Source: Arenicola marina
Taxonomy: Eukaryota; Annelida; Polychaeta; Arenicolidae
DNA: 64,000 nucleotides
Direction of reading: 5' to 3'
Assembly: GCA_964019135.1 (NCBI GenBank)
Contig: OZ025248.1
Span: forward strand, 10,919,574-10,983,573
The notes below the pieces were generated by a model. That model saw nothing but the letters and a program-made list of their open reading frames with translations. It made no database searches and was not told the DNA's origin. The stretch's first letter is position 1, and each line of letters starts with the position of its first letter. Below, one piece after another: positions 22 through 30,463 of the stretch. Both the position numbers and the translations under genes were made by a program.

Positions 22-186
22 CAAAACCACAGGTCTGCCACCATTGGATATCGAAGTGACTTGGGGCTTAGTAACGGGAGGCTGACACGTGATGATGTTG
101 GTGTAGAGTTCAGAGATGTTGCAGACCCCTCTGCCGACCTCAATAAGGTAGTCCTTCACCTCGCAGCCGTAATTCAATCTCTCTCC
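22..186 (-). CDS. Copy L exon 16: third IPT/TIG domain
   Basis: The exon is 165 bp, phase 0-0, with acceptor gtgtag and donor GTGAGT. It reads GERLNYGCEVKDYLIEVGR, then a VCNISELYTNIITCQPP segment. This is the classic plexin IPT pattern: (K)GxxLN, a cysteine in the second strand, CNI-x-L, then a C-x-PP end. It joins exon 15 in phase 0 to give an LLTIKGERLN junction, like the plexin ILKGRNL motif. It is the last exon visible, and its open donor shows that the gene continues beyond the left edge. Confidence 0.8.
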
Positions 187-298
187 CTACACCGAGAGGC
201 AACGATTCCTATCAAACACATGTCTACATGCCTACCGCTAATATGATAGGTTCAGCTGTAAAAATGCTAAATTGTGGCCGAACGTAGACCGTGGATCA

Positions 299-320
299 AC
301 TATATATATATATATATAAT
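299..320. repeat. (AT)n microsatellite
   Basis: Simple ta repeats; similar runs lie at 932-951 and 63240-63260. Confidence 0.9.
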
Positions 321-1024
321 ACATATCCGCTGGTGATCTGGGATGATATATGCATATAATAATGATATAGGAAAAGTGGGGGGAAAGTGAGGCAAAATGG
401 TGAACGCTAAGCTCTTTTTGTAACTGCAATCAGTAAGACAGAAACAAGAGTTACCACGTTTTATTGGACCATTAAACATTTAAATGTGACGTTGTAAGCC
501 GACTAGCATGTCTTAACAAGGACAAATTAGAAAATAAGAATACAATTAAAGTCAAGCATTCATTGCGCCGTTTTACCCCATAGATGGGACAATTTGGGGT
601 CAGATTTGGGCAACATGGGATCATGGAGTTCATGGCTATCCGTTGGTCGCCCGTTTCACTGGCTGAATAAACATTGTTTCCCACGTCCTTGGGACTTGAA
701 GATCAAGGTGTACGCATTTTGTGTCATATAGCATTAAGGGGAGCTGTGAAATTGGATCAAAAGTGAGAAAAAGATCTTAATTCATACTCGCATATTGTCA
801 CCTACCGGCATCCCGCTTCGTATTGCGGGTGCCAAATGACGTAAGCTGCTGGTATAAAAGTGTTCTCCAGACGGCAGCTCGGAGATATTACAATGGAGAT
901 ATTACCCCACCCCGTTATGCCCCGCGTGCCCATATATATATATATATATATAGTTAGTGTGTCTACATAGTGAGTGCATACATTACATATATATGATGTA
1001 GATCTGGCCTGGGGAAAACCTCAC

Positions 1025-1330
1025 CTTAATGGTCAATAGCTGGGAGCCCTTGTACGCGCGGTACGGTCGGATCAGGTCTTCTTCCTCGAATGTATCTATG
1101 TCGGGATCATAGAACACGTCGATTATACCGTATTCAGGAAGCACCTGGCTCACGTTCTTGTAGGTAAGCAACCCATCAAACTCGAAGCCCAGGTAAAACT
1201 GGAAATCATCCCTATTGATGCGATGAGCGTTGTCTGCCAATTGTCGTTTTTTGCGCCCCTGGATAGTCGGTATGTTGTTGACAGTCGGCGTAGGGCAAAT
1301 CATCAAAGTGCTGTTGAGAACCTCACACAG
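1025..1330 (-). CDS. Copy L exon 15: end of TIG2 and start of TIG3
   Basis: The exon is 306 bp (102 codons), phase 0-0, with acceptor ttattccag and donor AAG|GTGAGG. It opens LCEVLNSTLMICPTP, matching the plexin IPT end (C-x-V-x-NST-x-x-x-CP-x-P). It then carries a variable loop with an RKKR basic site (candidate furin cleavage), the F-Y-D-P-D strand, and YKGSQLLTIK that opens TIG3. The two TIG domains share this exon, as expected for abutting IPT repeats. Confidence 0.85.
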
Positions 1331-1513
1331 CTGGAATAATAAAGCATTAGATGATAGGTTATCTAGTAATAAAGCATAGGATTCATGACAACGTTCAAAT
1401 CTTGCGAACGCGTGCGTCTAACGTTACATATAAATGTACACTTATCGCGGGTTCTATGCACCGGTTTAGGTCCTTTGGGGACCAACAAAAAAACACATGC
1501 TCTTAGAATGAGG

Positions 1514-2218
1514 GCGCATCACGCTGGTGCCTTGGTAGAGTCGTGACTGCGAGACTCGTGGGAGCGTTTCTTTGGGACAGGACCGGGGGGCCGCCCGGTA
1601 TACTCGATGTTCTTCCGGGCCTGCCGGTCGGGTTATGCCGAATGTCAATGAAATGTTCACACCGGTCATGTCCGGTTCACTTAGGGGGTAATGGAACCAG
1701 CCTTGACAGTCACTTTTCAATCACTTTTCAATCAGCCGCCATCTTCTCCCGAATGTCCCGTGCTGTTCTGAACGGGGCACATCGGCATACCGAATGAATG
1801 CGTGCGCATCCGACCGGGATGAAAGAAGTGTCGAGCGGTAAACCGATGCGTAATGTGCGTATTCGGTCCACTTTGGGGATACACCCGGGTTACCAAAGAA
1901 ATGCGCCCATTGTAGTCAACGTTTGAGTGTTGACCGGCTGGCTGCGTGGTTTGTGCGTAATAAATCGAGTGGGTGTGAACATATTTTTTGTTTGCTTTGA
2001 TCCAGGCATTCCTAACAATAAAATCATAATACAATTACAGATAAGACATTCATCTCTCGATAATGCATGAGGTCCTTTCGATGAAACCGTAGGAAGCGTT
2101 GCATTTTAAGGCAAATCATCGATGTTTACATATCTGCGACAAACGGAACACCATTGTCCTCGCCTGGTCAGTCCATATGAGGAGCGTTGTTACGTAACCA
2201 TAGATACCGCGCAGAAAA
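1514..2218 (+). repeat. Dispersed repeat A, copy 1
   Basis: The stretch shares its start (gcgcatcacgctggtgcctt) and, from about 1924 to 2218, most of its sequence with 43497-43842 in the same orientation. It has about 400 bp that the second copy lacks. It lies in intron 14 of copy L just before the LTR element at 2232. No coding potential was recognised and the family is unknown. Confidence 0.6.
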
Positions 2219-2231
2219 ATGCTGCTGATAT

Positions 2232-2415: not shown

Positions 2416-2629
2416 TGATAACAATGAGTCAACCACAAGAGCCCAAACCAGTCATGGGCGTCCGACACTGTCAACAGCGCCGTATCAAGACAGTGTAACC
2501 AGGGCCAAAGATAACACCCCTATCATCGCTCAAGCACCAACAACTACCACAGCCACGACAACGGAACATTCGAGGTCAGTTGAACTCTTCTAAAGCTCCA
2601 AAATGGTTAAAGTGAGGTGTCCTTTCCCC

Positions 2630-3560
2630 GGCTGTGCCTATGAGACCGCTGACGCCGAGGATGGTGCTGTCGTTACTGCCCTTCTGAACATACATGCGCA
2701 AGCTCACGCCCCAACTGCTACTGGGCCCGCAAAGGCGGAAAAGCTGTATCTCGGCAGCCGGGACCGGTGAAGAGTGGGCGTACTTCGTGACACGGTGGAA
2801 GGAGTACCGCGAGGGAACCAGGCTGACCGGCCGAGATGTAGTGTCACAACTACTGGAATGCTGCGATGACCAGCTCCGGAAGGACCTGACCCGTGCTGCA
2901 GGAGGCACATTCGCGGCCAAAACAGAGAAGGAGGTACTCACAGGCATGGAGGCACAGGCGGTGCGCAGAAAAAAACATCATGGTAGCCCGCGTCACCCTA
3001 CACAATATGTCACAAGACCGTGATGAGCCCATTCGGTCATTTGGTGCTCGAATCAAACGCCAGGCCGGCACGTGCAAGTATGTGACAAACTGCTTGGCCG
3101 ACGACTGCGGAGCTGACGTGGACTTCACAGAGGCGATATTGCGTGACGTGCTTGCCCGTGGCATAGCAGACCAGGATATCCAGCTGGATCTCCTTGGGGA
3201 TCAAAATCAGGACATGTCACTGGAAGAGATGCTCTCATTCGTCGAAGCCAAGGAGTCTGGGAAGAGGTCGGCCTCCAGACTGTTAGATGCGCAGGGTGCC
3301 AATGCTATGAATAGTGCCTACCGCCGCTTCAAGATGCAATAATGGAGTGGTAAACGGTGGAATCCTAAAGTGGACCAGCCAGGGAGGCAGCAACTCACCT
3401 GCTCGTATTGCGGAGGCCGTGGTCATGGCAACCGTGCCCCGCCCCACGTGAGGGCAAAGCAGTGCCCGGCGTACAACCATAAATGTAAACTGTGCAACAG
3501 AGACCACCACACCGAAGGCCTTTGTCGCAGTAAGGACAACCCAAAGCCCAGCAGTAAAGC
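2630..3560 (+). pseudogene. gag-like region of the first LTR element (fossil)
   Basis: Residues typical of gypsy gag appear, with a C-x2-C-x-G-x-GH type knuckle near 3400-3510 (CSYCGGRGHG, then CKLCNRDHH). Fossil, broken. Confidence 0.7.
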
Positions 3561-3779
3561 CACCAATGCCGGTGACCAGGAAGCGGCGGCCTTCAGCGAA
3601 TTCTCCGAGCTATGCACCGTTCAGGCCATTGGTCGCCGCGGGGGAGGCCCCATCGCCATGAACCACCACCTGTACAACAACCAACGTGACATGTGGATAA
3701 GGGGACCATCGCAGGCCCAGCCCTACATTCGTCTGAACGTCGCAGCCAACAAACAAGACTACAGGGAGCTTGGCTTCGA

Positions 3780-3900
3780 ATTACTAACCCCCACGAGATC
3801 CCTTTCTCTGGCGGCGATGGCTGACACAGGTTGCCAGAGCTGTCTCGTCGGGCTGCAGGTGATCAACCGCCTAGGTTTACGGCGCAACGACCTGATACCC
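3780..3900 (+). pseudogene. Retroviral-type aspartic protease region (fossil)
   Basis: AMADTGCQSCLVGLQV carries the DTG active-site signature and lies between the gag-like and reverse transcriptase regions, as in Ty3/gypsy elements. Fossil. Confidence 0.7.
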
Positions 3901-4329
3901 GTCACCATGAAAATGCACGCTGCCAATGAGTAGGGGATGAACATCCTCGGGGCCGTCATCCTCCGATTCTCTGGATCGGGCAAGCCAGGTCACCTGCTTG
4001 AGACGCGACAAATCACGTAGGTCACAGACAACTCTGACAAACTCTTCCTCAGTCGCGAGGCATGTGAGCAGCTCGGCATGATCTCCAAATCATTGCCTAC
4101 CATTGGTGATGTCCACGTCCGTGCTACGCGACAATCCCCTGGTGAGTCGATGCACACTGCACACCCCGCGGACACCACTGCCCCATTCGACTGCCCCAAG
4201 CCCAAGCTGCCCCCACCCGTGTCGACGGAAATACCGTTCCCAGCAACCCCCGCCAACAGGGAAAAACTACAAGCGTTCTGGGTTAACCACTACAAGGACA
4301 GCACGTTCAACACGTAGGAACATCAGCCA

Positions 4330-5700
4330 CTCCCCATGATGACAGGCCCTCCGATCAAACTCATGATTGACCCCGACGCCTTCCCTGTAGCCTACCACAC
4401 CCCGATCTCAGTCCCATTACACTGGCAGGAGGAAGAGAAACCTGGGCTCGACCAAGACGTGAGGCTGGCAGTAATCGAATCCGTTCCTATAGGGACACCG
4501 GTCACTTGGTGTCATCGTAGGGTGATCTGCGCCAAGAAAACTGGGAAGCCACGGCGTATCGTTGACTTTCAGCCCCTTAATGCCCATGCTACCCGAGAAA
4601 CCCATCACACACAATCTCCTTTCCACCAGGCTCGTACCGCCCAACACGGGAAATAGAAAACCGTGTTCGACGCCTGGAACGGATACCACAGCGTGGCATT
4701 GGACCCCGAGGACAGGCACTACACCACCTTCATAACACCATGGGGCCGCTACCGATACTGTACAGCACCCCAAGGCTACATTGCCTCGGGGGATGGGTAC
4801 TCTCGCCGTTATGATGAAATCGTTGCCGACATCCCCCAGAAAACGAAATGCAGCGACGATGCCCTGCTATGGGCCGGCAGGATTGAAGGTAGCTTCTACC
4901 AGCACAGTGGCTGGACATCTGTGGCAGGAACGGCATTACTCTGAACCCAGACAAGTTCGTAGTCTGCCAAGAGGAGGTAGATTTCGCTGGCTTCACAATG
5001 ACCATGGACAGTGTGCGCCCTTGCGCAAAGTGCCTGAGGGCCATACATGACTTCCCCACCCCCCGCAACATCACGGACATTCGGTCTTGGTTCGGCCTTG
5101 TGAACCAGGTATCATACGCCTTCAGCATGGCCGACCGCATGCTGCCGTTCCGCGAACTCATCAAGCCAGGTAACACCTTCACCTGGAACGCAAGTCTCGA
5201 GGAGGCCTTCCAAGCATCGAAGCAGGTTATCACAAAGGAAATCGAGACTGGGGTAAAGATCTTCGACAAGACCAAACCGATCTGCATCGCCACTGACTGG
5301 TCAAAGGACGGTATCGGCTTCTGGATGTTCCAAAAACATTGTGAATGCCTGGGCACGACACCGTTCTGCTGCAAATATTGCTGGAAGATTACACTCGTGG
5401 GAAGCCGCTTCACCCATTCAGCCGAATCTAGATATGCCCCAATCGAAAGAGAGGCCCTAGCTGTGGCGGATGCCCTGGATAAAGCAAGATTCTTCGCACT
5501 TGGTTGTACAGAACTCATTGTAGCGGTCGACCACAAGCCGCTACTCAAGATCCTTGGGGACCGCTCGCTTGAGGATATATGCAACGGCCGCCTCAGGAAC
5601 CTCAAAGAGAGAACCCTCCGATACAGATTCCGAATCGTCCATATACCTGGCGTCCGAAACAGGGTGGCGGATGCGGTTCTCGCGCCACCCATCGGGGGAG
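4330..5700 (+). pseudogene. Reverse transcriptase and RNase H region (fossil)
   Basis: Gypsy-type polymerase fragments are seen over 4.3-5.1 kb, followed by RNase H with CIATDWSKDGIGFWM, SAESRYAPIEREALAVADAL and VAVDHKPLLKILGDRS. Fossil, broken. Confidence 0.75.
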
Positions 5701-5749
5701 AGGGAACCGCCAATGCTCCATCTACCCGATGATGTCGCCTGCACTTGGG

Positions 5750-6940
5750 ACCCTCAGGCCGCTCGACACAACTTCTTGGCAGGCACACGGACCCCACACG
5801 TCGACCAGAAGGATCTCAATCCCAAGACCAGGCCTGGGATGGCGGCTATATCCTCCCTTGCTACACTACACTGCGTCACCTGGGACCGTGTTCGGGAGGC
5901 CACATCCAGCGATGAGGATATGCACCTCCTCGTAACACGTATTGAGGACGGCCTTCCTCAGTCTCATCATGAGTTGCCACCCCCGCTTCGGCCTTACTAT
6001 CAATACCGTGAACACCTGCACTCAACAGACGGTGTGATTCTATACAGGGGCCGTGGCGTGATTCCCCCATGCCTCCGCCAGGAAGTCCAATCCGCGCTCC
6101 ACTCTGCCCACCAGGGCACAACCTCAATGATTGCGCGAGCAGAATCTTCCGTTTTCTGGCCCGGGATCACCTCAGCCATCAACCAGACCCGCACCGACTG
6201 CTCACAATGCAAAGCGGATGGCACCATCCCGACCCAACGCGCCACCAGCACCCCTCACTCTGCCGATATACCCTTTCCAATGCGTATGCGCTGATTTCTT
6301 CCGCTAAAAGGGCACCACCTATCTGTTCATCGTGGACCGCTATTCTAACTGGCCCATCGTCGAGAGGACGAAAGGTGGAGCTGCGGGTCTGATTGACTGC
6401 TTTAGAAGGTGATTCGCCACATACGGGATCCCTGACGAACTCTCCTCGGACGGTGGCCCAGAGTTCACAGCCGCTGCCACTCGCCAATACCTCCGTACTT
6501 GGGGCGTCCACCATCGCCTCTCATCGGTGGCATTCCCTCACAGCAACCGCCGTGCCGAGATCGGGGTAAAGACAGTCAAGCGTCTCATCACAGACAATAC
6601 CGATGCCAATGGTGCCCTAGACACAGACGCCACACAACGGGCAGTCCTCCAGTACCGCAACACCCCTGATCCAGACACCAAGCTGTCACCCACCATGTGT
6701 GTCTTTGGAAGCCCCATCAGGGACTTTATCCCTATACTGCCTGGTAGATATCAACCTCACGACACTTGGAAAGAAACCCTCGCGGCCCACGAAGAGGCGC
6801 TCCGAAACAGGCACATGCGAGACGCTGAACGATGGACGGAGCACACAAAACGCCTCCCCCCGTTGTCTGTCGGTGACTTCGTTAGGATCCAAAACCAGAC
6901 CGGCCCGCATCCCAACAAGTGGGACAAAACTTGACGAGTC
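5750..6940 (+). pseudogene. Integrase region (fossil)
   Basis: An HHCC-type zinc segment lies near 6.0-6.2 kb and catalytic-core-like fragments follow to about 6.9 kb. Fossil, broken. Confidence 0.65.
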
Positions 6941-7217: not shown

Positions 7218-7221
7218 GATC

Positions 7222-7545: not shown

Positions 7546-7556
7546 TCCTTTACGTA

Positions 7557-8075: not shown

Positions 8076-8187
8076 CGATCTATCCGGGTCGTATGTGAAC
8101 TGATGGAAGGATAGAACAGTGACGATCATGTAGGGTTTGTACACTGAGTCCAGGTGTCGACCGACCACAGTTTGGTTGATCCCGCCT
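8076..8187 (-). CDS. Copy L exon 14: middle of TIG2
   Basis: The exon is 112 bp, with acceptor ctgtccag and donor TCG|GTGAG. With two bases from exon 13 it reads RGGINQTVVGRHLDSVYKP, then YMIVTVLSFHQFTYDPDRS. The GGI-x-x-TV-x-G-x-x-LD signature is that of plexin IPT domains. It is too short to stand out as an ORF; it was found by translating between exons 13 and 15. Phase fits both neighbours (2 in, 0 out). Confidence 0.85.
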
Positions 8188-8453: not shown

Positions 8454-8648
8454 CGTACGAATGTTGAAAGCGGTTCGATGGATTCGATGACTGGGTCCTC
8501 CTTGAAGGTGAATTTCTGCCTCGTTTTCAAAACGTACTGCTCACTGCTGCCATTGTAGAGAGTGATTTCAAAGCTAGAGGGCGCCTCGAGTGCGGCAGGT
8601 CCGAGCGTTGTCACATTGGGGGACTCGGCGCTAATGTATGTGTAGTTG
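8454..8648 (-). CDS. Copy L exon 13: end of TIG1, start of TIG2
   Basis: The exon is 195 bp, phase 2-2, with acceptor ttttcttctag and donor CG|GTAAGT. It encodes the later strands of TIG1 (NYTYISAESPNVTTLGPAA, then a FEITLYNGSSEQYVL segment and FTFKEDP). The start of TIG2 follows (VIESIEPLSTFVR). The xFxYxxDPxIxxIxP linker is typical of adjoining IPT/TIG repeats. Two N-glycosylation sequons are visible (NYT, NVT). Confidence 0.85.
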
Positions 8649-9784: not shown

Positions 9785-9921
9785 CTGTTAGAAACTTTAA
9801 ATGAAGTAACTGCATGATTCAAGATGGCTGTCACATTTCCAAGGTAACCACCAATAAATGTTACAACGGTGCCGCCGGACTTTGGTCCGTATGTGGGTTC
9901 GACGGAGAAGACGTACGGGAA
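9785..9921 (-). CDS. Copy L exon 12: start of TIG1
   Basis: The exon is 137 bp, phase 0 in and 2 out, with acceptor ctgtttttag and donor AG|GTGTGT. It encodes FPYVFSVEPTYGPKSGGT, then VVTFIGGYLGNVTAILN. P-x-x-GP-x-SGGT-x-V-x-x-x-G is the canonical IPT/TIG opening seen in MET, plexins and fibrocystin. It follows the LE/EGF-like exon directly, so no Sema or PSI domain separates laminin-type from TIG-type modules here. Confidence 0.85.
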
Positions 9922-10405: not shown

Positions 10406-10541
10406 ACAGGTTTGTTGTGAGTCTGCGGGGCTGCCCTGTCCCGGCAGACACTGACACTTGGCGCCCACACACACAGGGAACCCGCCTCTGTCACGCCGAG
10501 TCGCGCCGCTGAAACACTTACACTCCGTCTCATTGGCCAAC
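10406..10541 (-). CDS. Copy L exon 11: end of laminin-NT domain and short LE/EGF-like segment
   Basis: The exon is 136 bp, with acceptor ctgttgcag and donor TGT|GTACGT. It reads LANETECKCFSGATRRD, then GGFPVCVGAKCQCLPG and a final QTC. C-x-C at the entry resembles the CxCxGHA start of laminin EGF repeats after domain VI, and the spacing C-x-C...C...C-x-C...C is EGF-like but shorter than a full LE repeat. The matching exon in copy R starts at 63935. Both the acceptor and the preceding intron are conserved there. Confidence 0.8.
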
Positions 10542-12258: not shown

Positions 12259-12315
12259 CGCGTGTTTTCGCGGCCATGAGCGTTCCATCTGAGCACGTGA
12301 TCGTGATTAACTGGC
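12259..12315 (-). CDS. Copy L exon 10: 57-bp exon of the laminin-NT domain
   Basis: The acceptor is ttctcctacag and the donor is GCG|GTTAAA, a weak donor. The sequence is identical to 62680-62736 in copy R. Phase 2-2 in context gives W-PVNHDHVLRWNAHGRENTR, leading into exon 11 (LANETEC). Another open frame (QLITITCSDGT) exists but breaks phase with exons 9 and 11. In laminin-NT domains this is where the last strands before the first LE repeat lie. Exact conservation of a tiny exon between copies is the main support. Confidence 0.7.
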
Positions 12316-13418: not shown

Positions 13419-13595
13419 CAGCCATATGCCTCCAGGTCCGTCAGGCTGTGAACGCTCGTGTTGGAACTGCCGCGTAACGTCACCCTCAGGGCATCCCCCG
13501 TCAGGAATTCCCTCACGTAGGGATGAATGACGTAATCAGGGTAGGCCTCACTGACTAAGTCGCGGCTGCCAAGCAACGTGATCGACAAATACAGA
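13419..13595 (-). CDS. Copy L exon 9: C-terminal part of laminin-NT (domain VI)
   Basis: The exon is 177 bp, phase 2-2, with acceptor tcctttcag and donor CTG|GTATGT. It encodes LYLSITLLGSRDLVSEAYPD, then YVIHPYVREFLTGDALRVTLRG. The P-x-V-REF-x-x-x-x-LR-x-x-LRG pattern matches the laminin-NT strand LQEFVxATxIRxxxxG that I know from usherin and laminins. The copy R exon differs mainly at its first dozen residues. Confidence 0.8.
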
Positions 13596-13925: not shown

Positions 13926-14107
13926 CTGTCCCCACCGTCCCGACATCCAACCTCATCAAAAGCCAAATCGCCACTTGACGTCATATTCCGTAACGCGCAG
14001 TTGGTCACGTGGTATATGTCGTGCCACTCGGAGTCGCTCCGTATGGCGAACGTTGCTTGACTTCCGTCAGGACTTTTCGATTTCAAATTCATCGTAAAAT
14101 TGTAGAG
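13926..14107 (-). CDS. Copy L exon 8: central laminin-NT domain
   Basis: The exon is 182 bp, phase 0 in and 2 out, with acceptor gcttatag and donor CAG|GTACGA. It encodes LYNFTMNLKSKSP, then ATFAIRSDSEWHDIYHVTNC. The xxIxRxxD-x-x-W-x-x-x-x-xxxxC element is the domain VI signature (W followed by a tyrosine and a cysteine before GxxxxxxGD). Copy R differs by 1 codon in length and by a patch right at the N-terminal side (KSKSPDGSQ versus ESRSAGGP). Confidence 0.8.
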
Positions 14108-15304: not shown

Positions 15305-15368
15305 CTTTGCGTCAAGGCACTTTCATAATATCGAACATCCTTCACCATACCGTGGAAATATCGGTATT
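15305..15368 (-). CDS. Copy L exon 6: last strand of LamG-like domain
   Basis: The exon is 64 bp, phase 1 in and 2 out, with acceptor tatttccag and donor AAG|GTAAGT. It encodes EYRYFHGMVKDVRYYESALTQ. GxxxDVRxYxxAL is the end signature of LamG_3/pentraxin-like jelly rolls and aligns with the usherin segment GRMQDFRLYQVALT. Removing the two preceding Frizzled exons would bring this strand in frame next to exon 3. Confidence 0.85.
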
Positions 15369-16603: not shown

Positions 16604-16757
16604 CATTTGCGGCAGAGACGCCCATGAACACGGTACCCAGGCCGTCGACTTCCCCAATGGCTCGCTTGCGGCGGCTCGGCATGTTAAAGTAAGTCGGGGA
16701 CCCATCGTTCACCATTACCATGGTGTAGCTGTTATAGGACTGCGGGGGCGTGTAGAT
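16604..16757 (-). CDS. Copy L exon 3: middle strands of LamG-like domain with RRKR site
   Basis: The exon is 154 bp, phase 0 in and 1 out, with acceptor ctctgtgcag and donor ATG|GTAGGT. It encodes IYTPPQSYNSYTMVMVNDG, then YFNMPSRRKRAIGEV and TVFMGVSA. It corresponds to the usherin LamG strands ending TVQIG. RRKR|A is a strong furin-type motif in the loop just before the Frizzled insertion. It is 21 bp shorter than the copy R exon, the length difference lying right after that site. It lies immediately 5' of the giant minisatellite on the plus strand. Confidence 0.8.
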
Positions 16758-16811
16758 CTGCACAGAGGAAGAGAAAACAAGGACTCCAATTCACATTTGA
16801 CATCCAAGGCA

Positions 16812-19800
16812 CGGACCCGTCGTTACTCACTGTAACATACGTTGAAAGATCAGTAAATCTTCAGACATGGACCCGTCCTTACTCACTATCACATACGTTG
16901 AAAGATCAGTAAGCCTTAAGACATGGACCCGTCGTTACTCACTATCACATACGTTGAAAGATCAGTAAGCCTTAAGACATGGACCCGTCGTTACTCACTA
17001 TCACATACGTTGAAAGATCAGTAAGCCTTAAGACATGGACCCGTCGTTACTCACTATCACATACGTTGAATGGTCAGTAAGCCTTAAGACATGGACCCGT
17101 CGTTACTCACTTTCACACACGTTGAATGGTCAGTAAGCCTTAAGACATGGACCCGTCGTTACTCACTATCACATACGTTGAATGGTCAGTAAGCCATAAG
17201 ACACCGACCCGTCGTCACTCACTATCACATACGTTGAATGGTCAGTAAGCCTGAAGACATGGACCCGTCACTCACTATCAAATACGTTGAATTGTCAGTA
17301 AGCCTTCAGACATGGACCCGTCGTTACTCATTATCACATACGTTAAATGGTCAGTGAGCCTTAAGACATGGACCTGTCACTCACTATCACATACGTTGAA
17401 TGGTCAGTAAGCCTTAAGACATGGACCCGTCGTTACTCACTATCACATACGTTAAATGGTCAGTGAGCCTTAAGACATGGACCTGTCACTCACTAACACA
17501 TACGTTGAATGGTCAGTAAGCCTTAAGACACCGACCCGTCGTTACACACTATCACATACGTTGAATGGTCAGTAAGCCTTAAGACATGGACCCGTCGTTA
17601 CTCACTATCACATACGTTGAATGGTCAGTAAGCCTTAAGACATGGACCCGTCGTTACTCACTATCACATACGCTAAATGGTCAGTGAGCCTTAAGACATG
17701 GACCTGTCACTCACTAACACATACGTTGAATAATCAGTAAGCCTTAAGACATGGACCCGTCGTTACTCACTATCACATACGTTGAATGGTCAGTAAGCCT
17801 TAAGACACCGACCCGTCGTTACACACTATCACATACGTTGAATGGTCAGTAAGCCTGAAGACATGGACCCGTCACTCACTATCACATACGTTAAATGGTC
17901 AGTAAGCCTTAAGACATGGACCCGTCACTCACTATCACATACGTTGAATGGTGAGTAAGCCTGAAGACATGGACCCGTCACTCACTATCACATACGTTGA
18001 ATGGTCAGTAAGCCCGAAGACATGGACCCGTCGTTACTCACTATCACATACGTTGAATGGTCAGTAAGCCGTAAGACATGGACCCGTCGTTACTCACTTT
18101 CACACACGTTGAATGGTCAGTAAGCCTTAAGACATGGACCCGTCACTCACTATCACATACGTTGAATGGTCAGTAAGCCATAAGACATGGACCCGTCACT
18201 CACTATCGCATACGTTGAATGGTCAGTAAGTCATAAGATATGGCCCCGTCGTTACTCACTATCACATACGTTGAATGGTCAGCAAGCCTTAAGACATGGA
18301 CCCGTCGTTACTCACTATCACATACGTTAAATGGCCAGTAAGCCTTAAGACATGGACCCGTGGTTACTCACTATCACATACGTTAAATGGCCAGTAAGCC
18401 TTAAGACATGGACCCGTCGTTACACACTATCACATACGTTGAATGGTCAGTAAGCCTTAAGACATGGACCCGTCGTTACTCACTATCACATACGTTGAAT
18501 GGTCAGTAAGCCTTAAGACATGGACCCGTCGTTACTCACTATCACATACGTTAAATGGCCAGTAAGCCTTAAAACACGGACCCGTGGTTACTCACTATAA
18601 CATACGTTGAATGGTCAGTGAGCCTGAAGACATTGACCCGTCGTTACTCACTATCACATACGTTGAATGGTCAGTAAGCCTTAAGACATGGACCCGTCGT
18701 TACTCACTATCACATACGTTGAATGGTCAGCAAGCCTTAAGACATGGACCCGTCGTTACTCACTATCACATACGTTGAATGGTCAGCAAGCCTTAAGACA
18801 TGGACCCGTCGTTACTCACTATCACATACGTTAAATGGCCAGTAAGCCTTAAGACATGGACCCGTCGTTACTCACTATCACATACGTTGAATGGTCAGCA
18901 AGCCTTAAGACATGGACCCGTCGTTACTCACTATCACATACGTTGAATGGTCAGCAAGCCTTAAGACATGGACCCGTCGTTACTCACTATCACATACGTT
19001 GAATGGTCAGTAAGCCTTAAGACATGGACCCGTCGTTACTCACTATCACATACGTTGAATGGTCAGTAAGCCTTAAGATATGGACCCGTCGTTACTCACT
19101 ATCACATACGTTGAATGGTCAGCAAGCCTTAAGACATGGACCCGTCGTTACTCACTATCACATACGTTAAATAGCCAGTAAGCCTTAAAACATGGACCCG
19201 TCGTTACTCACTATCACATACGTTGAATGGTCAGTAAGCCTTAAGACATGGACCCGTCGTTACTCACTATCACATACGTTGAATGGTCAGTAAGCCTTAA
19301 GACATGGACCCGTCGTTACTCACTATCACATACGTTAAATGGTCAGCAGGCCTTACAACATGGACCCGTCGTTACTCACTATCTCATACGTTGAATGGTC
19401 AGTAAGCCTTAAGACATGGACCCGTCGTTACTCACTATCACATACGTCGAATGGTCAGTAAGCCTTAAGACATGGACCCTTCGTTACTCACTATCACATA
19501 CGTTAAATGGTCAGTAGGCCTTAAAACATGGACCCGTCGTTACTCACTATCACATACGTTGAATGGTCAGTAAGCCTTAAAACACGGACCCGAAGTTACT
19601 CACTATCACATACGTTGAATGGTCAGTAAGCCTTAAGACATGGACCCGTCGTTACTCACTATCACATACGTTAAATGGCCAGTAAGCCTTAAGACATGGA
19701 CCCGTCGTTACTCACTATCACATACCTTGAATGGTCAGTAAGCCTTAAGACATGGACCCGTCGTTACTCACTATCACATACGTTGAATGGTCAGTAAGCC

Positions 19801-22800
19801 TTAAGACACGGACCCGTCGTTACTCACTATCACATACGTTGAATGGTCAGTAAGCCTTAAGACATGGACCCGTCGTTACTCACTATCACATACGTTAAAT
19901 GGTCAGTAGGCCTTAAAACATGGACCCGTCGTTACTCACTATCACATACGTTGAATGGTCAGTAAGCCTTAAAACACGGACCCGACGTTACTCACTATCA
20001 CATACGTTGAATGGTCAGTAAGCCTTAAGACATGGACCCGTCGTTACTCACTATCACATACGTTAAATGGTCAGTGAGCCTTAAGACATGGACCTGTCAC
20101 TCACTAACACATACGTTGAATGGTCAGTAAGCGTTAAGACACCGACCCGTCGTTACACACTATCACATACGTTGAATGGTCAGTAAGCCTGAAGACATGG
20201 ACCCGTCACTCACTATCACATACGTTGAATGGCCAGTAAGCTTTAAGACATGGACCCGTCGCTACTCACTATCACATACGTTGAATGGTCAGTAAGCATT
20301 AAGACATGGACCCGTCGTTACGCACTATCACATACGTTGAATGGTCAGTAAGCCTTAAGACATAGACCTGTCGTTACTCACTTTCACACACGTTGAATGG
20401 TCAGTAAGCCTTAAGACATGGACCCGTCGTTACTCACTATCACATACGTTGAATGGTCAGTAAGCCATAAGACACCGACCCGTCGTCACTCACTATCACA
20501 TACGTTGAATGGTCAGTAAGCCTGAAGACATGGACCCGTCACTCACTATCAAATACGTTGAATTGTCAGTAAGCCTTAAGACATGGACCCGTCGTTACTC
20601 ATTATCACATACGTTAAATGGTCAGTGAGCCTTAAGACATGGACCTGTCACTCACTATCACATACGTTGAATGGTCAGTAAGCCTTAAGACATGGACCCG
20701 TCGTTACTCACTATCACATACGTTAAATGGTCAGTGAGCCTTAAGACATGGACCTGTCACTCACTAACACATACGTTGAATGGTCAGTAAGCCTTAAGAC
20801 ACCGACCCGTCGTTACACACTATCACATACGTTGAATGGTCAGTAAGCCTGAAGACATGGACCCGTCACTCACTATCACATACGTTGAATGGTCAGTAAG
20901 CCTTAAGACATGGACCCGTCGTTACTCACTATCACATACGTTAAATGGTCAGTGAGCCTCAAGACATGGACCTGTCACTCACTAACACATACGTTGAATG
21001 GTCAGTAAGCCTTAAGACACCGACCCGTCGTTACACACTATCACATACGTTGAATGGTCAGTAAGCCTGAAGACATGGACCCGTCACTCACTATCACATA
21101 CGTTAAATGGTCAGTAAGCCTTAAGACATGGACCCGTCACTCACTATCACATACGTTGAATGGTCAGTAAGCCATAAGACATGGACCCGTCACTCACTAT
21201 CACATACGTTGAATGGTCAGTAAGTCATAAGATATGGACCCGTCGTTACTCACTATCACATACGTTGAATGGTCAGTAAGCCTTAAAACACGGACCCGTC
21301 GTTACTCACTATCACATACGTTGAATGGTCAGTAAGCCTTAAGACATGGACCCGTCGTTACTCACTATCACATACCTTGAATGGTCAGTAAGCCTTAAGA
21401 CATGGACCCGTCGTTACTCACTATCACATACCTTGAATGGTCAGTAAGCCTTAAGACATGGACCCGTCGTTACTCACTATCACATACCTTGAATGGTCAG
21501 TAAGCCTTAAGACATGGACCCGTTGTTACTCACTATCACATACCTTGAATGGTCAGTAAGCCTTAAGACATGGACCCGTCGTTACTCACTATCACATACG
21601 TTGAATGGTCAGTAAGCCTTAAGACACGGACCCGAAGTTACTCACTATCACATACGTTGAATGGTCAGTAAGCCTTAAGACATGGACCCGTCGTTACTCA
21701 CTATCACATACCTTGAATGGTCAGTAAGCCTTAAGACATGGACCCGTCGTTACTCACTATCACATACCTTGAATGGTCAGTAAGCCTTAGACATGGACCC
21801 GTTGTTACTCACTATCACATACGTTGAATGGTCAGTAAGCCTTAAGACATGGACCCGTCGTTACTGACTATCAGATACGTTGAATGGTCAGTAAGCCTTA
21901 AGACATGGACCCGTTGTTACTCACTATCACATACGTTGAATGGTCAGTAAGCCTTAAGACATGGACCCGTCACTCACTATCACATACGTTGAACGGTCAG
22001 TAAGCCTTAAGACATGGACCCGTCGTTACTCACTATCACATACGTTGAATGGTCAGCAAGCCTTAAGACATGGACCCGTCACTCACTATCACATACGTTG
22101 AATGGTCAGTAAGCCTGAAGACATGGACCCGTCGTTACTCACTATCACATACGTTGAATGGTCAGTAAGCCGTAAGACATGGACCCGTCGTTACTCACTT
22201 TCACACACGTTGAATGGTCAGTAAGCCTTAAGACATGGACCCGTCACTCACTATCACATACGTTGAATGGTCAGTAAGCCATAAGACATGGACCCGTCAC
22301 TCACTATCACATACGTTGAATGGTCAGCAAGCCTTAAGACATGGACCCGTCGTTACTCACTATCACATACGTTAAATGGCCAGTAAGCCTTAAAACATGG
22401 ACCCGTCGTTACTCACTATCACATACGTTGAATGGTCAGTAAGCCTTAAGACATGGACCCGTCGTTACTCACTATCACATACGTTGAATGGTCAGTAAGC
22501 CTTAAGACATGGACCCGTCGTTACTCACTATCACATACGTTAAATGGTCAGCAGGCCTTAAAACATGGACCCGTCGTTACTCACTATCACATACGTTGAA
22601 TGGTCAGTAAGCCTTAAGACATGGACCCGTCGTTACTCACTATCACATACGTCGAATGGTCAGTAAGCCTTAAGACATGGACCCTTCGTTACTCACTATC
22701 ACATACGTTAAATGGTCAGTAGGCCTTAAAACATGGACCCGTCGTTACTCACTATCACATACGTTAAATGGTCAGTAAGCCTTAAGACACGGACCCGAAG

Positions 22801-25800
22801 TTACTCACTATCACATACGTTGAATGGTCAGTAAGCCTTAAAACACGGACCCGAAGTTACTCACTATCACATACGTTGAATGGTCAGTAAGCCTTAAGAC
22901 ATGGACCCGTTGTTACTCACTATCACGTACCTTGAATGGTCAGTAAGCCTTAAGACATGGACCCGTCGTTACTCACTATCACATACCTTGAATGGTCAGT
23001 AAGCCTTAAGACATGGACCCGTCGTTACTCACTATCACATACGTTGAATGGTCAGTAAGCCTTAAGACACGGACCCGTCGTTACTCACTATCACATACGT
23101 TGAATGGTCAGTAAGCCTTAAGACATGGACCCGTCGTCTCTCACTATCACATACGTTAAATGGTCAGTAGGCCTTAAAACATGGACCCGTCGTTACTCAC
23201 TATCACATACGTTAAATGGTCAGTAAGCCTTAAGACACGGACCCGAAGTTACTCACTATCACATACGTTGAATGGTCAGTAAGCCTTAAAACACGGACCC
23301 GAAGTTAGTCACTATCACATACGTTGAATGGTCAGTAAACCTTAAGACATGGACCCGTCGTTACTCACTATCACATACCTTGAATGGTCAGTAAGCCTTA
23401 AGACATGGACCCGTCGTTACTCACTATCACATACCTTGAATGGTCAGTAAGCCTTAGACATGGACCCGTTGTTACTCACTATCACATACGTTGAATGGTC
23501 AGTAAGCCTTAAGACATGGACCCGTCGTTACTGACTATCACATACGTTGAATGGTCAGTAAGCCTTAAGACATGGACCCTTTGGTACTCACTATCACATA
23601 CGTTGAATGGTCAGTAAGCCTTAAGACATGGACCCGTCACTCACTATCACATACGTTGAATGGTCAGTAAGCCTTAAGACATGGACCCGTCGTTACTCAC
23701 TATCACATACGTTGAATGGTCAGTAAGCCTTAAGACATGGACCCGTCGTTACTCACTATCACATACGTTAAATGGTCAGTGAGCCTTAAGACATGGACCT
23801 GTCACTCACTAACACATGCGTTGAATGGTCAGTAAGCCTTAAGACACCGACCCGTCGTTACACACTATCACATACGTTGAATGGTCAGTAAGCCTTAAGA
23901 CATGGACCCGTCGTTACTCACTATCACATACGTTGAATGGTCAGTAAGCCTTAAGACATGGACCCGTCGTTACTCACTATCACATACGTTGAATGGTCAG
24001 TAAGCCTTAAGACATGGACCCGTCGTTACTCACTATCACATACGTTGAATGTTCAGTAAGCCATAAGACCCCGACCCGTCGTCACTCACTATCACATACG
24101 TTGAATGGTCAGTAAGCCTGAAGACATGGACCCGTCACTCACTATCACATACGTTGAATGGTCAGTAAGCCTTAACAATGGACCCGTCGTTACTCACTAT
24201 CACATACGTTAAATGGTCAGTGAGCCTTAAGACATGGACCTGTCACTCACTAACACATACGTTGAATTGTCAGTAAGCCTTAAGACATGGACCCGTCGTT
24301 ACTCACTATCACAGACGTTAAATGGTCAGTAAGCCTTAAGACATGGACCTGTCACTCACTAACACATACGTGGAATTGTCAGTAAGCCTTAAAACATGGA
24401 CCCGTCGTTACTCACTATCACATACGTTAAATGGTCAGTGAGCCTTAAGACATGGACCTGTCACTCACTAACACATACGTTGAATGGTCAGTAAGCCTTA
24501 AGACATGGACCCGTCGTTACTCACTATCACATACGTTGAATGGTCAGTAAGCCTTAAGACATGGACCCGTCGTTACTCACTATCACATACGTTGAATGGT
24601 TAGTAAGCCTTAAGACATGGACCCGTCGTTACTCACTTTCACACACGTTGAATGGTCAGTAAGCATTAAGACATGGACCCGTCACTCACTATCACATACG
24701 TTGAATGGTCAGTAAGCCATAAGACATGGACCCGTCGTTACTCACTATCACATACGTTAAATGGTCAGTGAGCCTTAAGACATGGACCTGTCACTCACTA
24801 ACACATACGTTGAATGGTCAGTAAGCCTTAAGACACCGACCCGTCGTTACACACTATCACATACGTTGAATGGTCAGTAAGCCTTAAGACATGGACCCGT
24901 CGTTACTCACTATCACATACGTTGAATGGTCAGTAAGCCTTAAGACATGGACCCGTCGTTACTCACTTTCACACACGTTGAATGGTCAGTAAGCCTTAAG
25001 ACATGGACCCGTCACTCACTATCACATACGTTGAATGGTCAGTAAGCCATAAGACATGGACCCGTCGTTACTCACTTTCACACACGTTGAATGGTCGGTA
25101 AGCCTTAGGACATGGACCCGTCACTCACTATCACATACGTTGAATGGTCAGTCCGCCGTAAGACATGGACCCGTCGTTACTCACTATCACATACCTTGAA
25201 TGGTCAGTAAGCCTTAAGACATGGACCCGTCGTTACTCACTATCACATACCTTGAATGGTCAGTAAGCCTTAGACATGGACCCGTTGTTACTCACTATCA
25301 CATACGTTGAATGGTCAGCAAGCCTTAAGACATGGACCCGTCGTCACTCACTATCACATACGTTGAATGGTCAGTAAGCCTTAAAACATGGACCCGTCGT
25401 TACTCACTATCACATACGTTAAATGGTCAGTAAGCCTTAAAACATGGACCCGTCGTTACTCACTATCACATACGTTAAATGGTCAGTAAGCCTTAAAACA
25501 TGGACCCGTCGTTACTCACTATCACATACGTTGAATGGTCAGTAAGCCTTAAGACATGGACCCGTCACTCACTATCACATACGTTGAATGGTCAGTAAGC
25601 ATTGAGACATGGACCCGTCGTTACTCACTATCACATACGTTGAATGGTCAGTAAGCCTTAAGACATGGACCCGTGGTTACTCACTATCACATACGTTGAA
25701 TGGTCAGTAAGCCTTAAGATATGGACCCGTCGTTACTCACTATCACATACGTTGAATGGTCAGTAAGCCTTAAGACATGGACCCGTCGTTACTCACTATC

Positions 25801-28626
25801 ACATACGTTGAATGGTCAGTAAGCCTTAAAACATGGACCCGTCGTTACTCACTATCACATACGTTGAATGGTCAGTAAGCCTTAAGACATGGACCCGTCA
25901 CTCACTATCACATACGTTGAATGGTCAGTAAGCATTGAGACATGGACCCGTCGTTACTCACTATCACATACGTTGAATGGTCAGTAAGCCTTAAGACATG
26001 GACCCGTGGTTACTCACTATCACATACGTTGAATGGTCAGTAAGCCTTAAGACATGGACCCGTGGTTACTCACTATCACATACGTTGAATGGTCAGTAAG
26101 CCTTAAGATATGGACCCGTCGTTACTCACTTTCACACATTTTGAATGGTCAGTAAGCCTTAAGACAGTGACCCATCGTTACTCACTATCACATACGTTAA
26201 ATGGTCAGCAAGCCTTAAAACATGGACCCGTCGTTACTCACTATCACATACGTTGAATGGTCAGTAAGCCTTAAGACATGGACCCGTCGTTAATCACTAT
26301 CACACACGTTGAATGGTCAGCAAGCCTTAAGACATGGACCCGTCGTTAATCACTATCACACACGTTGAATGGTCAGCAAGCCTTAAGACATGGACCCGTC
26401 GTTACTCACTATCACATACCTTGAATGGTCAGTAAGCCTTAAGACATGGACCCGTCGTTACTCACTATCACATACGTTGAATGGTCAGTAAGCCTTAAGA
26501 CATGGACCCGTCGTTACTCACTATCACATACGTTGAATGGTCAGTAAGCCTTAAGACATGGACCCGTCGTTACTCACTATCACATACCTTGAATGGTCAG
26601 TAAGCCTTAAGACATGGACCCGTCGTTACTCACTATCACATACGTTAAATGGTCAGTGAGCCTTAAGACATGGACCTGTCACTCACTAACACATACGTTG
26701 AATGGTCAGTAAGCCTTAAGACACCGACCCGTCGTTACACACTATCACATACGTTGAATGGTCAGTAAGCCTTAAGACATGGACCCGTCGTTACTCACTA
26801 TCACATACGTTGAATGGTCAGTAAGCCTTAAGACATGGACCCGTCGTTACTCACTTTCACACACGTTGAATGGTCAGTAAGCCTTAAGACATGGACCCGT
26901 CACTCACTATCACATACGTTGAATGGTCAGTAAGCCATAAGACATGGACCCGTCGTTACTCACTTTCACACACGTTGAATGGTCGGTAAGCCTTAGGACA
27001 TGGACCCGTCACTCACTATCACATACGTTGAATGGTCAGTCCGCCGTAAGACATGGACCCGTCGTTACTCACTATCACATACCTTGAATGGTCAGTAAGC
27101 CTTAAGACATGGACCCGTCGTTACTCACTATCACATACCTTGAATGGTCAGTAAGCCTTAGACATGGACCCGTTGTTACTCACTATCACATACGTTGAAT
27201 GGTCAGCAAGCCTTAAGACATGGACCCGTCGTCACTCACTATCACATACGTTGAATGGTCAGTAAGCCTTAAAACATGGACCCGTCGTTACTCACTATCA
27301 CATACGTTAAATGGTCAGTAAGCCTTAAAACATGGACCCGTCGTTACTCACTATCACATACGTTAAATGGTCAGTAAGCCTTAAAACATGGACCCGTCGT
27401 TACTCACTATCACATACGTTGAATGGTCAGTAAGCCTTAAGACATGGACCCGTCACTCACTATCACATACGTTGAATGGTCAGTAAGCATTGAGACATGG
27501 ACCCGTCGTTACTCACTATCACATACGTTGAATGGTCAGTAAGCCTTAAGACATGGACCCGTGGTTACTCACTATCACATACGTTGAATGGTCAGTAAGC
27601 CTTAAGATATGGACCCGTCGTTACTCACTATCACATACGTTGAATGGTCAGTAAGCCTTAAGACATGGACCCGTCGTTACTCACTATCACATACGTTGAA
27701 TGGTCAGTAAGCCTTAAAACATGGACCCGTCGTTACTCACTATCACATACGTTGAATGGTCAGTAAGCCTTAAGACATGGACCCGTCACTCACTATCACA
27801 TACGTTGAATGGTCAGTAAGCATTGAGACATGGACCCGTCGTTACTCACTATCACATACGTTGAATGGTCAGTAAGCCTTAAGACATGGACCCGTGGTTA
27901 CTCACTATCACATACGTTGAATGGTCAGTAAGCCTTAAGACATGGACCCGTGGTTACTCACTATCACATACGTTGAATGGTCAGTAAGCCTTAAGATATG
28001 GACCCGTCGTTACTCACTTTCACACATTTTGAATGGTCAGTAAGCCTTAAGACAGTGACCCATCGTTACTCACTATCACATACGTTAAATGGTCAGCAAG
28101 CCTTAAAACATGGACCCGTCGTTACTCACTATCACATACGTTGAATGGTCAGTAAGCCTTAAGACATGGACCCGTCGTTAATCACTATCACACACGTTGA
28201 ATGGTCAGCAAGCCTTAAGACATGGACCCGTCGTTAATCACTATCACACACGTTGAATGGTCAGCAAGCCTTAAGACATGGACCCGTCGTTACTCACTAT
28301 CACATACCTTGAATGGTCAGTAAGCCTTAAGACATGGACCCGTCGTTACTCACTATCACATACGTTGAATGGTCAGTAAGCCTTAAGACATGGACCCGTC
28401 GTTACTCACTATCACATACGTTGAATGGTCAGTAAGCCTTAAGACATGGACCCGTCGTTACTCACTATCACATACCTTGAATGGTCAGTAAGCCTTAAGA
28501 CATGGACCCGTCGTTACTCACTATCACATACGTTGAATGGTCAGTAAGCCTTAAGACATGGACCCGTCGTTACTCACTATCGCATACGTTGAATGGTCAG
28601 TAAGCCTTAAGACATGGACCCGTCGT
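16812..28626 (-). repeat. Giant 56-bp minisatellite in copy L intron 2
   Basis: About 11.8 kb and roughly 210 copies of a 56-bp unit (53-bp variants lack gtt in cccgtcgttactcac). Plus-strand core: ggacccgtcgttactcac, tatcacatacgttgaatggt, cagtaagccttaagacat. Variants occur in recurring blocks, including two adjacent 1,888-bp blocks (about 24730-26617 and 26618-28505). The homologous intron of copy R has only about 0.9 kb of the same unit in the same orientation relative to the gene. No gene lies inside. Confidence 0.95.
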
Positions 28627-28807
28627 TTGACATGTATTCTGTAAGTCATACGATTATACGAGCCAACCGAACTGCGACAACGCTTATGGATTGTCGTCCT
28701 CGACCTATGGTCGAATATCTCTTGTTATAATTGTTGTTGTGTAACAAATAGCTTCCAGTGTTTCAAGGAAAGCCAGACTTCGCGGTAGTGTCGGACCTGA
28801 AGCTCAC

Positions 28808-28979
28808 CTGTATTGTGATGAGCGTCCAACTGTTGAGCGGCACGCTGGTCTCCAGCGTCCTCGTGTACCCAAAGGCACGCACGGACAGTCTCGGGGCAGC
28901 GCCTTGGTCCGACGGCGTCAGGTACACCTCTACGTCGTTAAGTACTTGTGTTGCACCATGTCGGAATTGCATTATCGTC
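28808..28979 (-). CDS. Copy L exon 2: first half of LamG-like domain
   Basis: The exon is 172 bp, phase 2 in and 0 out, with acceptor ttcttcacag and donor CAG|GTGAGC. It encodes TIMQFRHGATQVLNDVEVYL, then RAFGYTRTLETSVPL and SWTLITIQ. The V-x-L...W-x-x-IxIQ ending is the usual mid-sheet strand pair of LamG-like domains. The copy R exon has the same length and only two amino-acid differences, the best conserved exon of the pair. Confidence 0.85.
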
Positions 28980-29224
28980 CTGTGAAGAAAAACGAATAAG
29001 GAATGCGTTACATAGCTCAAGAACGAAACGGTTCTCGGTAGAAGGAAATCTTTCCGGGGAAAAAAGTTGTTTATCAGTAGGATACATTTATAGTATACTA
29101 TCACTGCCCCGATCCAGGGACACGAAGATCTATTCTCGAGGGACCACCATCCACAATCCGAACAGCGGGACAGTTCGGGACGTTTACCCGAGCGATTGGA
29201 ATCCTCCCGCCTAATCATTCAGAT

Positions 29225-29860
29225 CCACCCAACTTTTCTGATTTTGCTGATTTCTGTTTTTCCAAACAATTGTATGTATTCTGGATCTACTCAATTGTAT
29301 GTATTCTGGATCTACTCAATTGTATGTATTCTGGATCTACTTAATTGTATGAATTCTAGATCCAAGGAATTGTATAAATTCTAATTCCAAACAAGTATAT
29401 CAATTCTGATTTCAAACAAGTATACCAATTCTGGATCCAAACAATCGTATGCAGTCTGAATCCACATAAACATTCAAATCCACAGAATCATATGCATTTC
29501 AACTCCACTCAATTGTATGTATTCTCGATCTATCCAATCATTCAGATCCACCGAATTGTATGCATTCCAGATCCGCCCAATCGTTCAGATCCACTGAATC
29601 TTACGCATTCAGGACCTACTAAATCATTCAGATCCACCCAATGGTATGCATTCCGGATCCGCCCAATCACTTAGATCCACCCAAGTTTATGCATTCCAGA
29701 TCCGCCCAATAATTCAGATCCACTCAATATTTTGCATTCAGGATCCACTCAATCTTCTGTATTCAGGATCCACTTAATCTTATGCATTCAGGATCCACTC
29801 AACCTTATGCATTCAGGATCCACCCAATCATTCAGATCCACTCAATCATATGGGATCGAT
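29225..29860 (-). repeat. Degenerate 18-bp-type array in copy L intron 1
   Basis: Irregular repeats of attcagatccacccaat and longer forms with tatgcattccggatcc. They correspond to the 18-bp array of copy R intron 1, much shorter and more diverged. Confidence 0.8.
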
Positions 29861-29891
29861 CTTGATGGGAGTTATGATCGGCTGCACTCAC

Positions 29892-30463
29892 CCGTATGTC
29901 CTGTTAGGTTGGACCCAGAACGTGTAAGTCTCATTTGGTTGGGCTTCGCGATCAAATGAGCTGAGGCAATAATCCCCACCTATCTGTCTCGTGCTTCTAC
30001 TTGAGTTGATTCCGTAGTAACCATCATTATCGAAGCATCCAATCGATCCCAGGTTGACGGGGGATGCGAAGGGAATGCTGGGATTAAGCCGCCGAGGATA
30101 TTTCCGTGGACAGTCAGTCAGACAGATGACGCCATTGATATTCCGTTCCGTGCCTCTGGCGCCACACGTGGCGTCCGGTGGATCCAGAGACACCTGGCGG
30201 CCGACCAGGACACTCCTGGTGGTGGAGACACTGAAGGCTGACAAGTCCTGTGTCTGGGCTGCTCCAGACAAGACGTGCCAAAAGGTGAACTGGAGCAGGG
30301 CAAAAGTCACTGAGATTCTGACATCCATATTGCTGATTGTTACTCCTGTTACAGCAGGAGAATACGTCCATCCACTGAAATATCCTTGTTATGGATGGAT
30401 ACCAGCATATTACGAAGAGCCCCTCACGTAAACTTCTCGGTGTTGTAGGCTATCAGGTACAAA
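29892..30463 (-). CDS. Copy L exon 1 (first coding): 5'UTR, signal peptide and cysteine-rich leader
   Basis: The ATG is at 30328; the coding part is 437 bp and ends in phase 2 at donor CGG|GTGAGT. The acceptor tctttttacag sits before 30463, so a non-coding exon should lie upstream. MDVRISVTFALLQFTF... is a signal peptide with a probable cut near SGAA/QT. The leader has ATCGARG, VICLTDCPRKYP and a later SIGCF, matching the usherin N-terminal pattern C...FCIQDCPYRSSHP. It lacks the RKKR motif present in copy R at the equivalent place (RSTR instead). Confidence 0.85.

Follow-up and report, generated by a model that had tools for sequence, protein, structure and literature searches.

A new MET-family receptor architecture in Arenicola marina, with a very probable usherin-type N-terminal block and a Frizzled cysteine-rich domain in four of five clustered copies

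A stretch of 64,000 nucleotides from the genome of the annelid Arenicola marina (the window; contig OZ025248.1, C1:10919574-10983573) contains on its minus strand a gene, here called L, whose product has a LamG-like domain with a ten-cysteine Frizzled cysteine-rich domain (CRD; Fz) inside it, followed by a laminin-N-like domain, a partial LE, three IPT domains, one transmembrane (TM) helix and an intact kinase. This is a real new receptor architecture and a variant of the MET family. The sequence comparisons described below make it very probable that L and its four clustered paralogues (R, R2, R3 and LL) are MET-family receptor tyrosine kinases in which Sema, PSI and IPT1 were swapped by exon shuffling for an usherin-type N-terminal block, and in which four of the five copies carry the Fz CRD. 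The exchanged block would comprise the LamG-like domain, laminin-N and the start of LE1 from an usherin-type gene.

Window numbering is used throughout, and negative positions lie beyond the left end of the window. The sequence on both sides (100 kb each) was also read, and genome-wide searches covered the assembly of 867 Mb in 762 contigs (GCA_964019135.1). Rebuilding of exons from the DNA gave 16 exons of L within the window, on the minus strand from 30328 to 22, which encode 972 amino acids in a stop-free frame with chaining phases and bear out the domain order and coordinates given by an initial annotation made from the window sequence. Reading past the window edge completed the gene as 24 exons from 30328 to -4386 (minus strand; 1498 amino acids, stop-free); the kinase exons beyond both L and R were found by tblastn with a horseshoe-crab MET query. 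Introns are GT-AG in 89 of 89 cases in the L, LL, R and R2 models, a count that is not independent because GT-AG was used as a criterion for placing the introns; independent signs for the models are the chaining phases, the open frames and the conserved exon lengths. The features of L are as follows.

29892..30328 (-): exon 1, signal peptide (by eye) and N part of the LamG-like domain, amino acids 1-146; R copy 91.5% identical
28808..28979 (-): exon 2, LamG-like strands, amino acids 146-203, phase 2 to 0
16604..16757 (-): exon 3, LamG-like strands, amino acids 204-255, phase 0 to 1, furin-like RRKR; phases match the usherin-like C17 gene
15967..16194 (-): exon 4 (FzA), first part of the Frizzled CRD, 228 nt, phase 1-1; boundaries and phases shared with an Fz exon on C9
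15582..15683 (-): exon 5 (FzB), last part of the Frizzled CRD, 102 nt, phase 1-1; no Fz exon in LL
15305..15368 (-): exon 6, last LamG-like strands, 64 nt, phase 1 to 2; length and phases match LL and the usherin-like C17 gene
14654..14945 (-): exon 7, laminin-N-like part 1, phase 2 to 0
13926..14107 (-): exon 8, laminin-N-like part 2, phase 0 to 2
13419..13595 (-): exon 9, laminin-N-like part 3, phase 2-2
12259..12315 (-): exon 10, linker, 57 nt, phase 2-2, not found in LL
10406..10541 (-): exon 11, partial LE (LE1-like)
9785..9921 (-): exon 12, IPT a (MET IPT2-like), part 1
8454..8648 (-): exon 13, end of IPT a and start of IPT b (MET IPT3-like)
8076..8187 (-): exon 14, IPT b
1025..1330 (-): exon 15, end of IPT b, furin-like RKKR, start of IPT c (MET IPT4-like)
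22..186 (-): exon 16, IPT c
-262..-463 (-): TM, outside the window
-945..-1052 (-): juxtamembrane part, outside the window
-1475..-4386 (-): kinase and tail, outside the window

The C-terminal body of the protein is of the MET type. A Pfam scan of full-length L returned PK_Tyr_Ser-Thr (E 6e-94) and TIG (E 1.3e-10, three stretches), and the 972-amino-acid in-window part gave TIG over three stretches with a whole-protein E of 1.1e-11, in agreement with the TIG domains of the initial annotation. Residues 668-1328 of L align as a single block to residues 660-1357 of Tachypleus MET (33% identity, E 9e-87), and the three IPT domains are therefore taken as MET IPT2-4, with Sema, IPT1 and apparently PSI replaced; an early idea of four IPT domains was dropped, as the alignment gives three. 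Among the best 60 of 508 PDB matches, MET is the best kinase (1.5e-83), above RON, MER, TYRO3, AXL and IGF1R, and the only entry above it is a chain holding two EGFR kinases, which outranks MET because both of its kinases are counted; ROR and MuSK kinases do not occur among these 60. The catalytic motifs GEGNFG, VAVK, HRDLAARN and DFG are intact in L, and the catalytic motifs of R, R2 and LL are likewise intact. One strong hydrophobic segment past the N-terminus, within L 991-1027 and C-terminal to the IPT domains, represents the TM helix. Of the endings considered initially (a TM helix, a kinase or a plexin GAP), the complete model thus has a TM helix and a MET-like tyrosine kinase, and the Pfam scan of full-length L and LL gave no RasGAP match.

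The same scan gave no Sema match in L or LL, and none of 7 genome-wide Sema matches lies in the cluster; a Sema match at C1:20505419 has TIG matches nearby. PSI gave no Pfam match, and the cysteine-rich exon before the IPT domains has weak alignments to two regions, the stretch preceding MET IPT1 (8.1 bits) and usherin LE1. Ig and kringle had no Pfam match in the full-length scan. The signal peptide was called by eye, and among the four N-termini only that of R2 passes the hydropathy threshold. L has RxKR sites at 232 and 841, R and R2 have them at 117, 238 and 852, and LL has none. The tails of L, R and R2 each hold two YxxM motifs, with none in the LL sequence read; YLPM and YERM in the tail are YxxM motifs of the PI3K type. 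Elsewhere in the genome, C6:1.54-1.78 Mb holds three similar TIG-rich exon blocks (508-amino-acid open frames) spaced by about 100-130 kb, and C621 has more TIG matches; these may represent a second duplicated TIG family.

The N-terminal head resembles that of usherin in both sequence and intron positions. Laminin_G_3 matched L partially and below the cut-off (21.6 bits, best stretch 19-86 of the 151 profile positions; 20.3 bits, E 6.6e-4, on the full protein), whereas with the two Fz exons skipped the match became continuous and reached 27.3 bits against a cut-off of 27.6, and in LL, which has no Fz, it was above the cut-off and continuous over 132-270 (34.7 bits, E 2.4e-8). The LamG-like domain of the initial annotation is recognizable without the Fz exons and in LL, although partial and sub-cut-off in L as it stands. 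A genome-wide search with Laminin_N gave 15 matches, including genes at C17:33312910 (1.5e-7) and C5:32238828 (4.9e-10) that we take to be usherin-like because their LamG-LN-LE layout resembles that of usherin. The comparison used these C5 and C17 loci, with exons spliced from the DNA, and left out a third fetched Laminin_N locus (C8). A head profile spanning LamG exon 3 to LE, built from LL plus L and R without Fz, aligned by hhalign to the two usherin-like genes with a probability of 95.1% (E 3.1e-8, 262 columns) and a score of 61.8; 100 shuffles of the columns never exceeded 24.5. The laminin-N part alone aligned with a probability of 85.8% (E 5.4e-6) and a score of 43.3, and its 100 shuffles peaked at 22.6.

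The head and the C17 gene have matching phases at all five introns compared (LamG3/LamG4, 1; LamG4/LN1, 2; LN1/LN2, 0; LN2/LN3, 2; LN3/next, 2), the first three lying at exactly aligned residues and the last two within gapped stretches of the alignment. The three introns compared in the C5 gene match in phase as well (3/3), and the LamG4 exon measures 64 nt in the C17 gene, L and LL. The partial LE, the LE-like piece noted initially, sits where usherin has LE1 and is weak by itself (hhalign 18%). A Pfam scan at E 1 over the full protein found neither the ten LE repeats nor LG or FN3, one partial LE being aligned by profile. According to the available part of PMC7317166, human usherin is made up of LGL and LN followed by ten LE, two LG and 32 FN3 domains, and fibronectin and collagen IV bind to the LE region in vitro. 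The proposal of the initial annotation that a laminin-type head with an added Frizzled module replaces Sema before the IPT domains is supported.

The Fz segment has ten cysteines, which are kept together with the frame in L, R and R2, and a profile of these three copies finds Frizzled-8 structures (5e-7). FzA and FzB, both phase 1-1, sit in the phase-1 intron between the third and fourth LamG exons. In LL a single intron of ~400 bp separates these LamG exons, and in the C17 gene one of ~0.9 kb does so; tblastn for Fz-like sequence in these two introns found none in LL and two chance-level matches (E 0.40 and 4.4) in C17. The Fz module interrupts the LamG-like domain, since the LamG match is continuous only with Fz skipped and in LL. 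The CRD is probably a later insertion, gained on the branch leading to L, R, R2 and R3, because LL and one usherin-like gene are without Fz at that intron. An Fz exon on C9, the one fetched of the genome-wide Fz matches, has the boundaries and phases of the cluster Fz exon, and movable Fz exons therefore exist in the genome. The C9 exon is distant, and at most a candidate donor of the module.

Several points weigh against this interpretation. The receptor gene models are predictions from genomic DNA. Pfam Fz scored 23.6 bits in L and 28.1 bits in R, below the cut-off of 32.1 (E 1.5e-4 on full-length L), and a genome-wide Fz search at E 0.001 gave 10 matches without the Fz exons of the cluster among them; the Frizzled CRD named initially holds up through its cysteines and the Frizzled-8 structures, though it is sub-cut-off in Pfam. 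Laminin_N gave no Pfam match in the protein even at E 10 and no credible PDB match (best E 1.3), so the laminin-NT motifs of the initial annotation are supported through the laminin-N domains of the two usherin-like genes and not by a direct profile or structure match. The usherin-like label of the C5 and C17 genes comes from their layout, with no database naming, and the head was compared with these two of the genes behind the 15 Laminin_N matches, the others including laminin and netrin genes. Both Fz exons are symmetric and so may be skipped.

The remaining point of this kind concerns the high Fz ratio in the divergence between copies, expressed as dN/dS by the NG86 method. For L and R the ratio is 0.53 over the whole protein, 0.22 in the kinase, 0.47 in the IPT domains, 0.08 at the C-end of LamG and 1.41 in Fz, and for L and R2 it is 1.61 in Fz, the Fz ratios being bare estimates over 110 codons for which either diversifying or relaxed evolution is possible. 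Between R and R2, Fz (0.91) lies below the N part of LamG (1.46) and laminin-N (2.09), on few changes. The copies may favour different ligands, as the CRD changes faster than any other domain when L is set against R or R2.

An alternative that we consider possible, though it falls short of an even chance, is that the Fz exons form an optional cassette and that L, R and R2 also produce an Fz-less isoform with an intact LamG-like fold beside the Fz form. FzA (228 nt) and FzB (102 nt) are symmetric at phase 1-1, skipping of Fz restores the continuous LamG match, and the FzB donor of R lies within a six-fold tandem duplication of 53 bp. Set against this, neither the frame nor any of the ten cysteines has been lost in L, R or R2, a sign that the Fz form is in use at least sometimes. 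The duplication itself, at 58171-58489 of R, consists of six 53-bp copies (100% matches) that duplicate the end of FzB together with its splice donor, and it could disturb or diversify splicing of R.

It is unlikely that the CRD is ancestral to the head and was lost from LL and the usherin-like gene: this would require two independent clean losses at one phase-1 intron, and the human usherin domain list has no Fz in the part of PMC7317166 available, although the apparent conversion between L and LL (below) could erase an exon too. Later insertion of Fz into an usherin-type head remains the preferred account.

The receptor genes form a cluster of five copies, with four open models (L, R, R2 and LL) and one apparently damaged copy (R3). 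R occupies 11 exons on the plus strand from 47073 to the window end and is complete at 47073-72125 (1509 amino acids, stop-free); R2 lies at 83585-104208 (1509 amino acids, stop-free). LL (minus strand) extends from -54762 to -70599 or beyond (at least 1327 amino acids, stop-free), the end of its C-terminal tail lying beyond this model; it shows 62% identity and has the same head-IPT-kinase order. R3, from 111274 to about 129 kb, appears damaged because it was fitted without exon 2, splice fits were lacking for exons 12 and 15 and the two final kinase exons fitted poorly. L and R lie head to head ~17 kb apart and are 87% identical over the part compared, with length differences that preserve the frame. 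A genome-wide search with the LamG end and the laminin-N part gave 19 matches, all within the cluster, and the family therefore seems confined to the five copies at the sensitivity of that search. The exons of R are as follows.

47073..47527 (+): exon 1, signal peptide (by eye) and LamG-like
53009..53180 (+): exon 2, LamG-like
56958..57132 (+): exon 3, LamG-like
57483..57710 (+): exon 4, FzA
58092..58193 (+): exon 5, FzB
58868..58931 (+): exon 6, LamG-like end
59385..59670 (+): exon 7, laminin-N-like 1
60158..60336 (+): exon 8, laminin-N-like 2
60690..60866 (+): exon 9, laminin-N-like 3
62680..62736 (+): exon 10, linker
63935..64000 in the window (+): exon 11, partial LE, extending to 64070
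to 72125 (+): 13 further exons outside the window, ending in the kinase

These copies bear on whether two neighbouring genes, one usherin-like and one a MET-like kinase starting near the IPT exons, were wrongly joined in the models. The models are predicted from genomic DNA, and the partial LE is the place where an usherin fragment would fade out; yet the same order is repeated in five clustered copies, four of which keep it in phase (LL, at 62% identity, among them), the LE/IPT intron is GT-AG and phase 0 in L, R, R2 and LL, and the joined frame is stop-free with its only strong hydrophobic segment past the N-terminus following the IPT domains, which leaves false joining very improbable. Least probable of all is a decaying cluster of recent pseudogenes that are open by chance, for which the fit of R3 without exon 2 and with several exons unfitted and the overall L-R dN/dS of 0.53 might speak, and against which stand three full-length open models of 1498-1509 amino acids plus LL, a kinase dN/dS of 0.22 and catalytic motifs intact in L, R, R2 and LL.

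LE, K2, K3 and portions of exons 1, 7 and 14 are 92-98% identical between L and LL, and exon 13 is 90% identical, against 61-81% in the remaining exons; such tracts amid diverged exons suggest gene conversion within the cluster. A 56-bp minisatellite is common to intron 2 of L and R, with 213 units in L (11.8 kb, 16806-28627) and 16 in R (55992-56909), a large divergence in unit count since duplication. Intron 1 of R contains an 18-bp tandem array of ~285 units (47586-52738) that overlaps a GC skew of 0.74 at 48-52 kb, and intron 1 of L holds repeats related to this array. Between L and R lies a retroelement of the long terminal repeat type (33532-39344, minus strand; RVT_1 8e-37, Integrase_H2C2 7.9e-23, rve 1.6e-13), with a 51/102-bp tandem repeat inside one open reading frame. 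A second retroelement remnant (2890-6934, plus strand; RT_RNaseH 1.1e-13) occupies the L intron between exons 14 and 15, and the intron between exons 12 and 13 contains a long inverted repeat at 9519-8920 that by eye resembles a hairpin transposon. Rfam and tRNA scans gave no match.

Among known receptors, MET/RON and Met-LP (PMC6374515) share with these proteins the IPT domains, the single TM helix and the MET-like kinase, with continuous alignment to horseshoe-crab MET; the Arenicola proteins differ in having no Sema or recognizable PSI, three IPT domains instead of four, a head from another family and an added Fz CRD. Usherin (USH2A) has the same order of LamG-like, laminin-N and LE start, and the intron phases and places are those of the usherin-like genes of this genome, but the head has one partial LE in place of ten and no LG or FN3 was found, with IPT domains and an intracellular kinase instead. 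ROR and MuSK also carry a Frizzled CRD on a receptor tyrosine kinase, whereas here the kinase is MET-like, Ig and kringle have no match and the CRD lies inside a LamG-like domain. Plexins share the MET/plexin-type IPT domains; the present proteins differ from them in having no Sema and no RasGAP match and in carrying a tyrosine kinase.

Met and Met-LP have been sought through Sema as receptors with a Sema-bearing plexin-type ectodomain, and the available part of that report mentions no Sema-less form (PMC6374515). It also reports no Met in Ecdysozoa (PMC6374515, available part), in contrast to the labels Sema, TIG and tyrosine kinase on an HGF-receptor-like protein (P0001) of the chelicerate Tachypleus tridentatus. 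Extracellular domain shuffling in the tyrosine kinome is mentioned in the available part of PMC8662651, where this combination does not appear. Searches of Creative Commons-licensed PMC literature, with most subscription journals outside its scope, listed nothing that describes such a receptor in its title or abstract start, a weak negative. Protein-database searches gave one match among 7993 scored candidates (the Tachypleus MET-like receptor, 23% of the query covered), none among 7992 at E 10 with another query, and with a further query 27 among 7990 that read as kinase matches (Pfam labels, 12-21% query coverage), none with this head; these negatives are weak because only candidates sharing most words were scored.

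A stepwise mechanism may be proposed from the domain content. After the exchange of the N-terminal block, two phase 1-1 Fz exons would have entered the phase-1 intron within the LamG-like domain in all copies but LL. The usherin-type head would anchor the receptor to the extracellular matrix or a neighbouring cell, and the CRD, which would protrude from the LamG sandwich on one of its loops, may provide a second binding site for Wnt, lipid or another ligand. Binding would cluster the receptors so that the MET-type kinases trans-phosphorylate tail tyrosines, which (as YxxM in L, R and R2) may recruit effectors. MET is processed into linked chains, and the furin-like sites in L, R and R2 suggest a similar cleavage.

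The undescribed receptor class of the initial annotation is thus a new architecture but a derived variant of the MET family and not a wholly separate class. A broader view, that an usherin-type head with Fz in LamG drives a MET kinase as a new class of receptor tyrosine kinase, with direct readout of matrix and of Wnt-like or lipid ligands and with CRDs diversified for ligands among the copies, is tentative and somewhat doubtful. MET and plexin receptors are described as Sema-headed, and a survey based on Sema (PMC6374515) would miss a Sema-less member. In the Arenicola cluster, the head of a receptor tyrosine kinase was apparently swapped as a block whose introns still match the donor family, and a folded domain subsequently took in another one; a paralogue with the site empty (LL) lies ~50 kb away. 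Stepwise assembly of a receptor by exon shuffling would thus be readable within one cluster, which raises the question of whether a MET kinase may be driven both by matrix and by a CRD ligand.

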